DNA of 34,764 nt, from contig CANFQO010000030.1 of the NCBI GenBank assembly GCA_947449135.1, forward strand, positions 1-34,764, read 5' to 3'. The number at the start of each line of letters is the position of its first letter. Position 1 is the stretch's first letter. Under the pieces are notes generated by a model. The model saw only the letters and a list, made by a program, of their open reading frames with translations, was not told where the DNA came from and made no database searches. Origin of the DNA: Planctomycetaceae bacterium (lineage in GTDB: Bacteria; Planctomycetota; Planctomycetia; Pirellulales; UBA1268). Of the stretch, positions 23,660-26,280 are shown piece by piece. A program made the translations under genes and the position numbers.

Positions 23660-23679
23660 CAGACTGCTGGTGACGGTTC

Positions 23680-23810
23680 GGGGCTGCCCATGCCCCGTCG
23701 CCGGACGTTCGCTGCGGACATCCTGTCCTTCGCTCACTCGATGCTGACTGCGCTCCGGCATCCTGCCTGCGCTGGTCAGCAACGCCGGCTCTCGGGACAT
23801 GGGCAGCCCC
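23680..23810. repeat. Long-spaced inverted repeat with internal hairpins
   Basis: GGGGCTGCCCATG (23680-23692) is a perfect inverted copy of CATGGGCAGCCCC (23798-23810). Between the arms are two short hairpins with the same three-base loop: GGACA-TCC-TGTCC (23716-23728) and GGCA-TCC-TGCC (23757-23767). Read on the other strand these are CA-GGA-TG hairpins like those of the element to the right and of the copy at 26146-26280. It begins 20 bp after the metallohydrolase stop. No transposase or target duplication is visible. Confidence 0.6.
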
Positions 23811-23857
23811 TCACGGATGCATCCGGCCGGCGAGCAAGGCAGCAACCAATCAGCTCC

Positions 23858-23930
23858 CGTGCCGAAGGCACGTGTAAGCACCAGCCGACGGAGGTCGGCC
23901 AAGCGAAAATGGCAGGATGCCATGTTTCGC
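23858..23930. repeat. Dispersed hairpin repeat, copy 1
   Basis: Three hairpins sit in a row in the convergent gap between the metallohydrolase and trpD. The first is CGTGCC-GAA-GGCACG (23858-23872) and the second GCCGAC-GGAG-GTCGGC (23884-23899). The third is a 12-bp stem at 23903-23930 with outer arms GCGAAA/TTTCGC, inner arms ATGGCA/TGCCAT, loop GGA and one bulged G at 23924. A T-run follows at 23945-23950, running into the trpD stop. The second and third hairpins and their linkers recur at 26200-26246 with compensatory stem changes. Confidence 0.7.
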
Positions 23931-23948
23931 GTGAACACAGCACCTTTT

Positions 23949-24998
23949 TTAAGCGAGGCGGTCGAGCAGGCGGGCTGCGTCGCCGGAATCGATGGCAGCT
24001 TCGGCGGTCGCGCGGGCGGCGGGTAAATCGCTGGCCCTGCCGGCGGCCCAGAGCACCGCGGCCGCATTGAGCACCACGACGTCGCGGCGGGGGCCCCTCG
24101 CACCCGCGAGCACGTCGCGGATCGCGGCAGCGCTCTCCGCAGGGCCAGCGACCGTCAGTTCCGCGAGGCGATCTGCGGGCTGCATCGCAATACCAAAGTC
24201 TTCAGGCGTCCAACGCGACCGTGTGGTCGAGCCGGCCGACACGTCGATGACGTCGGTGGGCCCAAACAGACTGATCTCGTCGAAGACATTCTTATTCGTG
24301 TCGTCGCCAATATGACCTGAGACGACGAGCGTGCGCTTCGCGCCGAGCAGCCGAGCGGCCTCGGCCAGTGGTTCCCGCGCGGTGGCCCGTCCGACACCGA
24401 TCACCTGCACGGTGGCCCCGGCAGGATTGCAGAGCGGGCCGACGAGGTTGAATACGGTCGGCCGGCCGAGTGACCGCCGCAGCGGGCCGACACGGGCCAT
24501 GGCCGGATGATGCACCGGAGCGAGGCAGAAGCAGAATCCTTCCTGCTTGAGCAGGTGTGCGGATGTCTCCGGCGGCACCCCGACCGCCACGCCGAGCTGT
24601 TCGAGCACGTCGGCCGATCCGGTGCGGCTGGTCACCGCGCGGTTGCCATGCTTCGCGACGGGCAGGCCAGCCGCCGCCGCGACCACGGCCGCCGCCGTCG
24701 AGATGTTGAACGAGCCACAGCCGTCGCCTCCGGTGCCACAGGTGTCGGCCACGACCGCGTGCGTCGTGTGAACCGGAAGCATCCTGCCCCGCAGGGCCTC
24801 GGCCACGCCGGCGATCTCGTCGGCCGATTCGCCGAGGTCGGCCAGCGCCAGCAGCCATTGGCCGAAGAGTTCCAGATCGACCGTTCCCGCCAGAACACCG
24901 TCGACGAGTTGTCGAGTTTCGTCACGGCCAGCATGGATGCCCTGCCGCAGCCCTTCGAGAGACCGGAGCAGGTCGGGTGTGTCGGTCGATCGGTCCAT
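23949..24998 (-). CDS. trpD: Anthranilate phosphoribosyltransferase
   Basis: TrpD joins anthranilate to phosphoribosyl pyrophosphate in tryptophan synthesis (EC 2.4.2.18), in the cytoplasm. The 349 residues fit the family (about 340). Key motifs are DTCGTGGDG (85-93, PRPP binding), FNISTAAAV, KHGNRAVTSRTGSADVLE (116-133, anthranilate and metal sites), FCLAPVHHPAMARVGPLRR and FNLVGPLCNPA. The start at 24998 gives MDRSTDTPDLL. Longer in-frame readings reach 25445 but have no family similarity and cross the promoter of the divergent nucleoside hydrolase. No other trp gene is in the window, so it stands alone. Confidence 0.95.
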   Translation of the reverse strand: MDRSTDTPDLLRSLEGLRQGIHAGRDETRQLVDGVLAGTVDLELFGQWLLALADLGESADEIAGVAEALRGRMLPVHTTHAVVADTCGTGGDGCGSFNISTAAAVVAAAAGLPVAKHGNRAVTSRTGSADVLEQLGVAVGVPPETSAHLLKQEGFCFCLAPVHHPAMARVGPLRRSLGRPTVFNLVGPLCNPAGATVQVIGVGRATAREPLAEAARLLGAKRTLVVSGHIGDDTNKNVFDEISLFGPTDVIDVSAGSTTRSRWTPEDFGIAMQPADRLAELTVAGPAESAAAIRDVLAGARGPRRDVVVLNAAAVLWAAGRASDLPAARATAEAAIDSGDAARLLDRLA

Positions 24999-25202
24999 GA
25001 AAATCTCACAGCAGCTGTGGTGCCAGACCCGGGCGGACGGCACGGCGGTCTGGTTTCGGCTACCATTCTGCAACAGCCTACCCCGCAGGGATAGGTGTTG
25101 AGCACAGGCGGAGCACCACGCCACCATGTCCACCATGCCCGCACACGAGTTGACCACAGTGCCGAGTGAAGAAAAAAACTCGCGACAGAGGAGCCTGCCA
25201 CC

Positions 25203-26141
25203 GTGCCACGCAAGGTGATCCTGGATCTCGACCCCGGGATTGATGATGCCGTGGCGTTGACCATGGCCCTCTTCGATCCACGGCTGGAGGTGTTGGCTGT
25301 CACTGCGGCTGGTGGCAACGTTCTCCCCGAACAGGCCACCGGCAACCTCCAGGCGCTCGTGGCCTACCTCGATCCGCCGCGGCTGCCGCGGATTGGCGTC
25401 GCTCCCGGCGACACAGCGATGCCTGAAAAGCCATTCAACATGCATGGCAGTGACGGACTGGGTGGCATCAACCTACCGCGGGCCCAACTGCATGGCGGGC
25501 ATGTCTCGGAGAAGGTGATGTGGGAGACGATCCGCGCGAATCCGCGGGAGGTCACGATCATCGCTCTGGGGCCGCTCACGAATCTCTCCCGCCTGCTGAG
25601 GCGGGATCCATCGATCGCGGAGATCATCGACCGGGTGATCATTTCTGGCGGCACCGTGCATGGAAGCGGCAACGTGACGCCGGTTGCCGATCTCAACTTC
25701 TATTGCGATCCGCTGGCGGCCCGGCATGTGGTCCGCGAGCCGCTCACCAAGTCGCTCGTCCCACTCGAGACCACCAGTCAGGTGTTGCTCGAGTTCGATT
25801 TCCTGGATCATCTGCCGGACGAGACCTCACGGGCCGGCCTGTTGCTCCGGCGGATGCTGCCGCATGCCTACAGGGCCCATCGCCAGCTGCTCGGGAGCGA
25901 GGGGGTCTGGTTGCATGATGTGGTGGCGCTCGTCGCGGCCACGAATCCGGAACTGTTTGAGCGAACGGCCATCGTGGCTGACGTGGAGACTTCCGGCGAC
26001 CTCACGGCCGGCATGCTGGTGATTGACCGCCGGCAGGTCCGCCAGCAGCGGCCGAACGCTGACCAGTTCATCAACTGCGACGTGCCGGCGGTGAAGGACT
26101 GCATCCTACGGTCGCTGGCGGCTGCCGCGGCAGCAACGTGA
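25203..26141 (+). CDS. Inosine-uridine-preferring nucleoside hydrolase family protein
   Basis: This 312-residue enzyme cleaves the N-glycosidic bond of ribonucleosides and is presumably cytoplasmic. The family's calcium site DLDPGIDDA is at 8-16, close to the start. Further family blocks are IALGPLTNLSRLLRRDP, IISGGTVHGSGNVTPVADLNFYCDP (the E/D-FN-x-x-x-DP substrate motif) and GVWLHDVVAL with the late calcium-binding Asp. The start is a GTG at 25203 with GAGGAG 9 bases upstream, a good ribosome-binding site. It is divergent from trpD (204 bp) and converges on the protease gene. The substrate base cannot be told from the sequence. Confidence 0.92.
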   Translation: MPRKVILDLDPGIDDAVALTMALFDPRLEVLAVTAAGGNVLPEQATGNLQALVAYLDPPRLPRIGVAPGDTAMPEKPFNMHGSDGLGGINLPRAQLHGGHVSEKVMWETIRANPREVTIIALGPLTNLSRLLRRDPSIAEIIDRVIISGGTVHGSGNVTPVADLNFYCDPLAARHVVREPLTKSLVPLETTSQVLLEFDFLDHLPDETSRAGLLLRRMLPHAYRAHRQLLGSEGVWLHDVVALVAATNPELFERTAIVADVETSGDLTAGMLVIDRRQVRQQRPNADQFINCDVPAVKDCILRSLAAAAAAT

Positions 26142-26145
26142 AGCG

Positions 26146-26280
26146 GCCGTGTCGTGCGTCTCCTCACCGCTGCAGGGCAGGATGCCCTGCGCAGCACCAG
26201 CGGGCGGAGGCCCGCCAAGCGAAAACGACACGATGTCGTGTTTCGCGTGAAGCAGAACGGCAGGATGCCGTGTCGTGCGT
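26146..26280. repeat. Dispersed hairpin repeat, copy 2, with 14-bp direct repeats
   Basis: This element fills the convergent gap between the nucleoside hydrolase and protease genes. The direct repeat GCCGTGTCGTGCGT lies at 26146-26159 and 26267-26280. Between or at its edges are four hairpins: GCAGGGCA-GGA-TGCCCTGC (26172-26190), GCGGGC-GGAG-GCCCGC (26200-26215), a 12-bp stem at 26219-26246 with outer arms GCGAAA/TTTCGC, inner arms ACGACA/TGTCGT and loop CGA, and ACGGCA-GGA-TGCCGT (26257-26271). The second and third match copy 1 at 23884-23930, including the bulged G (26240). Confidence 0.7.

Follow-up and report, generated by a model that had tools for sequence, protein, structure and literature searches.

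Two elements in a 34,764-nt stretch of planctomycete DNA (the window) belong to an interspersed family of repeats of about 85-90 bp, each made of three hairpins (H0, H1 and H2). Their stems change on both sides with pairing retained, and their placement follows the ends of neighboring genes. Known REP repeats are similar, but neither their signature nor the enzyme that usually accompanies them is found here, and the family is not a canonical REP. Judged from sequence and genomic placement, it is probably a REP/BIME-like, non-autonomous element that moves as folded single-stranded DNA. The window is contig C30 of a draft genome of 3.69 Mb in 169 contigs.

Two Copies in the Window

The whole elements lie on the minus strand, which is taken as the sense strand, with H2 coming first behind the gene end; the hairpins are given below as read on the plus strand. 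Copy 1 (23858-23940) consists of H0 (23858-23872, CGTGCC-GAA-GGCACG, found by DNA folding), H1 (23884-23899, GCCGAC-GGAG-GTCGGC, 6 bp with a GGAG loop) and H2 (23903-23930, 6 bp, a bulged G, 5 bp and an AGGAT loop), followed by the tag ACAG at 23937-23940 (CTGT on the sense strand), where the conservation of the family stops. Copy 2 (26170-26255) reads CTGC-H0-H1-H2-tag, with a tag one base shorter than usual. Its hairpins are H0 (26172-26190, GCAGGGC-AGGAT-GCCCTGC, from sequence and DNA folding), H1 (26200-26215, GCGGGC-GGAG-GCCCGC, 6 bp, GGAG loop) and H2 (26219-26246, 6 bp, a bulged G, 5 bp and an ACGAT loop). In both copies, H1 and H2 were delimited from sequence and alignment. Folded as DNA, the plus strands of copies 1 and 2 gave z-scores of -4.7 and -6.2, respectively, and none of 200 shuffles was equally stable.

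The sequence-only reading had proposed that the hairpin pairs at 23884-23930 and 26200-26246 are homologous, and direct reading of the sequence reproduced these coordinates exactly. The two differences in the H1 stem (C-G to G-C and A-T to G-C) and the two in the H2 stem (T-A to C-G and G-C to A-T) are all compensated as claimed, and the bulged G has an identical location. The near-identity of loops and linkers holds for the GGAG loop and for the CAA linker between H1 and H2, but the H2 loops differ at one base. The third hairpin, H0, lies upstream in both copies and had been overlooked.

Copy 2 sits beside a remnant of an older element, half an H2 at 26256-26280 on the minus strand (AACGGC AGGAT GCCGT G TCGTGC GT). 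In a same-site comparison, this hairpin is intact in genome G003 and a shorter remnant is left in G001. The 13-bp sequence CCGTGTCGTGCGT occurs at 26147-26159 and again at 26268-26280, thus flanking copy 2; the repeat is probably the same H2 arm of an older element.

Positions 23672-23823 of the window hold a different interspersed repeat, a palindrome of about 150 bp whose inverted ends are GGGGCTGCCCATG and CATGGGCAGCCCC. It is present in many copies with 90-98% identity in all five genomes of the genus, and some copies of the hairpin family, copy 1 included, lie inside or against it.

Copy Number and Host Distribution

A blastn search with copy 1 gave 46 matches in its own genome, and a covariance model built on 42 copies gave 92 at E<=0.01, most of them strong. 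Neither of the two outcomes named beforehand as speaking against the reading, an absence of further copies or copies with uncompensated stems, arose. Copy numbers are minima, as draft genomes break at repeats. Element copies lie near the ends of contigs C48, C51, C77, C79, C84, C91, C102 and C110 of genome G000; the assembly probably breaks at such copies, and their number is therefore underestimated.

The repeat was found in 24 of 36 genomes of the taxonomic family, the own genome counted, and in none of 23 genomes from other families of the order (59 genomes searched in all). Under stricter filters, a phylum sample of 294 genomes showed it in the own genome and in none of the 293 others. Copy number is patchy even within genera, ranging from 0 to 92. 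Among the carriers are G000-G003, G012, G015, G023 and G029; G006, G008, G010, G014, G022 and G030 lack the repeat. Nearly all named records that match the H1 consensus bear the label of a planctomycete MAG, some are of lake origin, and a few species labels look doubtful. Viral contigs gave no match to the 25-base H1 consensus. The hosts are one family of freshwater planctomycete bacteria, around whose genomes the repeats seem to jump. The family is undescribed in the literature covered, namely open-licence PMC papers.

Anatomy and Modularity

On the strand used in the sequence-only reading, the order of the family is H0, the linker AGCACCA, H1, CAA, H2 and GTGAA-NN-C-A/G-G, with conservation ending at the last G. 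H1 has 6 bp and a loop that is mostly GGAG or TGC. In H2, about 6 bp are followed by a G bulged out on the 3' side and another 5-6 bp, with a loop that is mostly AGGAT or ACGAT. On the sense strand the end tag is fixed as C-T/C-G-N; it reads CTGA in part of the copies, and many have CT within this outer tag. Of 80 distinct copies, 59 have an H0 that pairs perfectly over at least 5 bp, compared with 6.6% of shuffles. Seven of the 92 matches scored below 40 bits and were left out of the end-tag, stop-offset, wobble and gene-context counts; for wobble pairs and loops, another 20 of the remaining 85 were omitted as duplicates or because their hairpins could not be parsed, leaving 65 copies. The stems are modular, with 10 different H1 arms and, in the 65 copies, 31 combinations of lower and upper H2 arms.

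Nine of the 92 matches are 87-89 bases long, with an extra stretch inside H2 that in several forms a further hairpin. Variants with an extra H2 hairpin, for example CTGACTCCAGCCGGGCATCCGCCCGGCATTGCG, were observed at loci L017, L036, L150 and L043 (C8:4508, C42:1280, C42:1429, C166:2660 and C7:76490). Another repeat, GATGCTGAGGAGCCGGTCGGAGGCACGCGCAGGAG, frequently follows the element (L013, L016, L017, L018). On inspection by eye, neither H2 nor H0 is followed on either strand by the conserved T run of an intrinsic terminator. The CAC and GTG linkers might have formed a closing stem, but this idea was dropped, as their bases showed no covariation by eye.

Stem Covariation and Wobble Pairs

In the alignment of 42 copies, 94.4% of the stem cells pair. 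Changes on both sides were found at 13 of 17 pairs and in 111 cells, against 31.5 in shuffles and at most 18 in slid controls. The 119 matches from other loci, nearly all in other genomes, pair in 97.9% of cells and contain 372 double-changed cells compared with 126.8 after shuffling; here the alignment follows the model by construction, and related copies are counted more than once. The expectation that a model search would reveal more compensated changes was thus borne out in the own genome and beyond it. One-sided stem changes are very rare in both alignments, and loops, linkers and the bulged G are conserved while the stems vary.

Wobble pairs make up 12 of 1134 cells (1.1%), whereas eight distinct local tRNAs have 17 of 190 (8.9%; Fisher p 2.6e-8, with cells that are not fully independent). 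Since selection on an RNA fold should pass through wobbles more often, their scarcity points to a constraint or a copying process that probably operates on DNA, and it favors such a process over a structured RNA. In GTAG repeats, GT pairing is "often observed" according to PMC3733652.

The compensated differences between the two copies had been taken to indicate selection on the folded structure. The fold is indeed kept by compensated changes, but selection is only one possible cause, because block exchange or arm-to-arm copying would give the same pattern, and block exchange is seen in comparisons of the same site.

Gene Context and Stop-Codon Register

Both copies had been described as lying between converging genes, and a check for enrichment in such gaps had been proposed. 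Among the 85 copies of at least 40 bits, 33 lie in convergent gaps, 3 in divergent gaps, 2 inside a called gene and 12 at a contig edge; in co-directional gaps, the H2 end faces the stop in 26 copies and points the other way in 9. Convergent gaps therefore hold 33 of 71 classified copies compared with 23% expected from gap length (p 2.9e-5), and divergent gaps are under-represented (p 1.0e-5), the background being taken from the same element-bearing segments. Genes were called with our own caller, which missed the gene at 25203-26141 as the start of trpD was called too early.

The convergence rule can be refined: H2 points toward the 3' end of an opposite-strand gene, often exactly at its stop. 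Past H2, the next gene runs on the opposite strand for 60 of 73 copies. The element starts exactly after the stop codon in 15 of the 73 (offset 7, counted from the CGT closing H2), while 19 copies are scattered among the 39 remaining offsets under 40 (Poisson 1e-17 for offset 7). At the other loci, offset 7 was again the commonest, with 9 of 90 sites and at most 5 for the next. Read in the orientation of the gene, the offset-7 copies consist of the last codon, TGA or TAG, N-T-T/A-CACG and H2.

Comparison of Orthologous Sites

Orthologues of metG, phoU and ppdK were sought in 40 genomes of the family, with 30 loci examined per gene. Immediately after the stop codon, the start pattern was present at 3 metG, 4 phoU and 6 ppdK loci, against a background frequency of 0.0018; several of these patterns are remnants only. 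Since such remnants occur in sister species, copies evidently decay, and any single copy is under weak selection. Where an orthologue lacks the element, the coding end is at or near the same place, which indicates that the element stands behind natural stops and has created no truncated genes. For the copy at C3:92967, the corresponding site of a related genome (L160) is empty, with its stop codon at the same place and no evident duplication.

The site of copy 2 holds elements with other hairpins in G002 and G003, only the remnant in G001 and something else in G004. Between C9:63176 and its counterpart in another species (L203), H0 is the same, H1 has one compensated change and the upper stem of H2 is changed as a block. 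At phoU, H2 is common to G000 and G001 and H0 differs. These same-site comparisons show that copies come, go and swap modules.

At the 3' end of ppdK (L330-L333), TAG-CTTCACG is found in G000, G002 and G003, and TGA-ATACACG in G001. Among ppdK orthologues lacking the element, those that share TAC as the last codon stop with TGA.

Search for an Enzyme Partner

The own genome has one Y1 gene, which is RAYT-like and scores 60.1 bits against NCBIfam REP_Tyr_transpos (cut-off 80). No convincing element was found with models R1 and R2 beside 12 Y1 genes (the own one and 11 of relatives) in a scan of 13 sources, of which L009 and L010 hold the same gene; the flanks covered about 1.5 kb and were in some cases cut by contig ends, so that a neighbor could be missed. 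The single match, of 13.7 bits, is inside a gene. Genome G015 has 92 repeat matches and no Y1 hit, and over the 59 genomes in which Y1 genes were counted, repeat numbers with and without Y1 differ weakly (Mann-Whitney p 0.075).

A search for an autonomous parent with the same ends, using a model of H2 only (R2), found none, as 74 of its 75 matches are whole-element matches by eye. An H2 end without H1 is thus present in at most 1 of 75 matches, and there is no convincing solo end.

Discussion

The family shares the REP habit of high-copy palindromes outside genes, with 92 matches in the genome and 2 of 85 copies inside a called gene. At the 5' hairpin foot, where a GTAG or GT[AG]G would be expected of a REP, the alignments of 42 and 72 copies have other conserved bases. 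The proposed likeness to REP/BIME elements is therefore sound as to habit, but membership of the GTAG REP family failed in two tests. According to PMC3733652 and PMC8266576, what is shared extends to bulged hairpins in high-copy extragenic repeats, alternative complementary stem residues and mosaic composition, and the CT at the outer end is like the cleavage site of TnpA_REP. The family here is set apart by three hairpins in a fixed order, the missing GTAG foot, the lack of a flanking RAYT in the scan and the exact stop-codon register.

Non-autonomous derivatives of IS200/IS605 have subterminal imperfect hairpins and a defined short junction sequence. The family shares both of these traits, and no long target duplication was seen; it differs in that no parent element with these ends was detected. 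Among described repeats, the hairpins of class 3 TnpA_Y1, which according to PMC6006769 occur mainly in Planctomycetes and Acidobacteria, have the 5' foot CnGA and flank a Y1 gene, may be the closest published relatives, being likened here by description and not by sequence. They too are atypical, high-copy non-GTAG hairpins in planctomycetes, and the sense tag here is often CTGA; the repeats here differ in that no Y1 gene was found beside them and the tag lies some bases away from H2. The TAACTGA repeats of Beggiatoaceae are likewise abundant intergenic repeats in environmental bacteria (PMC4679880), but they are heptamer direct repeats with no hairpins.

Mutation and recombination, rather than selection, could mainly lie behind the compensated changes, by hairpin template switching and by gene conversion of modules. 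This is a serious possibility that falls somewhat short of probable. It would explain why wobble and one-sided intermediates are almost absent and why the same H2 upper arm stands on several lower arms (31 combinations in 65 copies), and it agrees with the block change of H2 beside a kept H0 at C9:63176 and with the shared H2 beside different H0 hairpins at phoU. Pure copying of arms, however, leaves the conserved loops, linkers and bulged G unexplained, and it accounts for the pairing but not for the mobility or the stop-codon register. That register, together with the fixed orientation and the stable folds, would also be expected of a structured RNA at mRNA 3' ends, whether a terminator, an exonuclease barrier or a regulatory 3' UTR, with selection on the RNA fold. 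This is nevertheless unlikely: G-T cells are far rarer than in tRNAs, the deviation from shuffles is stronger when the repeats are folded as DNA than as RNA, copies are degenerate or missing behind the same gene in sister species, and Rfam gave no match at gathering score in the window. Of the two roles suggested from the window, a folded-DNA target thus fits better than one in transcript 3' ends, wobble being nearly absent.

A REPtron, in which a canonical GTAG REP family is moved by the RAYT that it flanks, would match the copy number, the extragenic position, the bulged hairpins and the presence of a RAYT-like gene in the genome; as the alignments show neither GTAG nor GTGG at the foot and no copy lies close to any of the 12 Y1 genes examined, it is quite improbable. 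Still far less credence is given to the repeats being decoys for a CsrA/Rsm-type protein that binds GGA in hairpin loops. Below the Rfam threshold, the two copies in the window match best to rsmX (17 bits) and RsmZ (15.3 bits), and CsrA is found in 59 of 59 genomes, but these scores are far under the gathering scores of 56 and 44, GGA is missing from 27 of 65 H2 loops and 22 of 65 H1 loops, the presence of CsrA does not track the repeat, and transcription reading through from the gene that H2 faces would yield RNA of the opposite strand. In the 59 relatives searched, several copies of CsrA per genome are common, with up to 14 matches.

Movement as folded single-stranded DNA fits best with the outer C-T/C-G tag, the bulged hairpin, the orientation rule and the lack of an evident duplication. 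The enzyme would be a nuclease/ligase for single strands that acts in trans, most likely of the Y1 (HUH) type as in TnpA_REP or IS200/IS605; it would recognise the folded hairpins, and the element would be inserted 3' of a CT dinucleotide. The E. coli TnpA_REP cleaves at CT and requires a bulged hairpin (PMC8266576). Insertions at C-TGA or C-TAG would spare the gene product and survive, while others in genes would be purged. With the folded single strand as the substrate, perfect pairing would be kept, and the exchange of whole modules between copies would help; an effect on mRNA 3' ends may follow as a secondary consequence. A more specific and rather doubtful version has the family as a new class of single-strand hairpin transposable repeat, inserted 3' of CT, which would use stop codons as a safe harbor and rebuild the last two bases of the stop (GA or AG). 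The stop switch at ppdK, TGA without the element and TAG with it in G000, G002 and G003, is a hint of a stop rebuilt on insertion.

With about 90 copies per genome and independent copies in several species, the family is a natural data set for comparing selection on folded DNA with arm copying in REP-type stems. The base-exact placement of a mobile repeat behind stop codons would explain how it spreads without breaking genes, and should the enzyme prove not to be a RAYT, these planctomycetes hold a hairpin-processing enzyme that is new.
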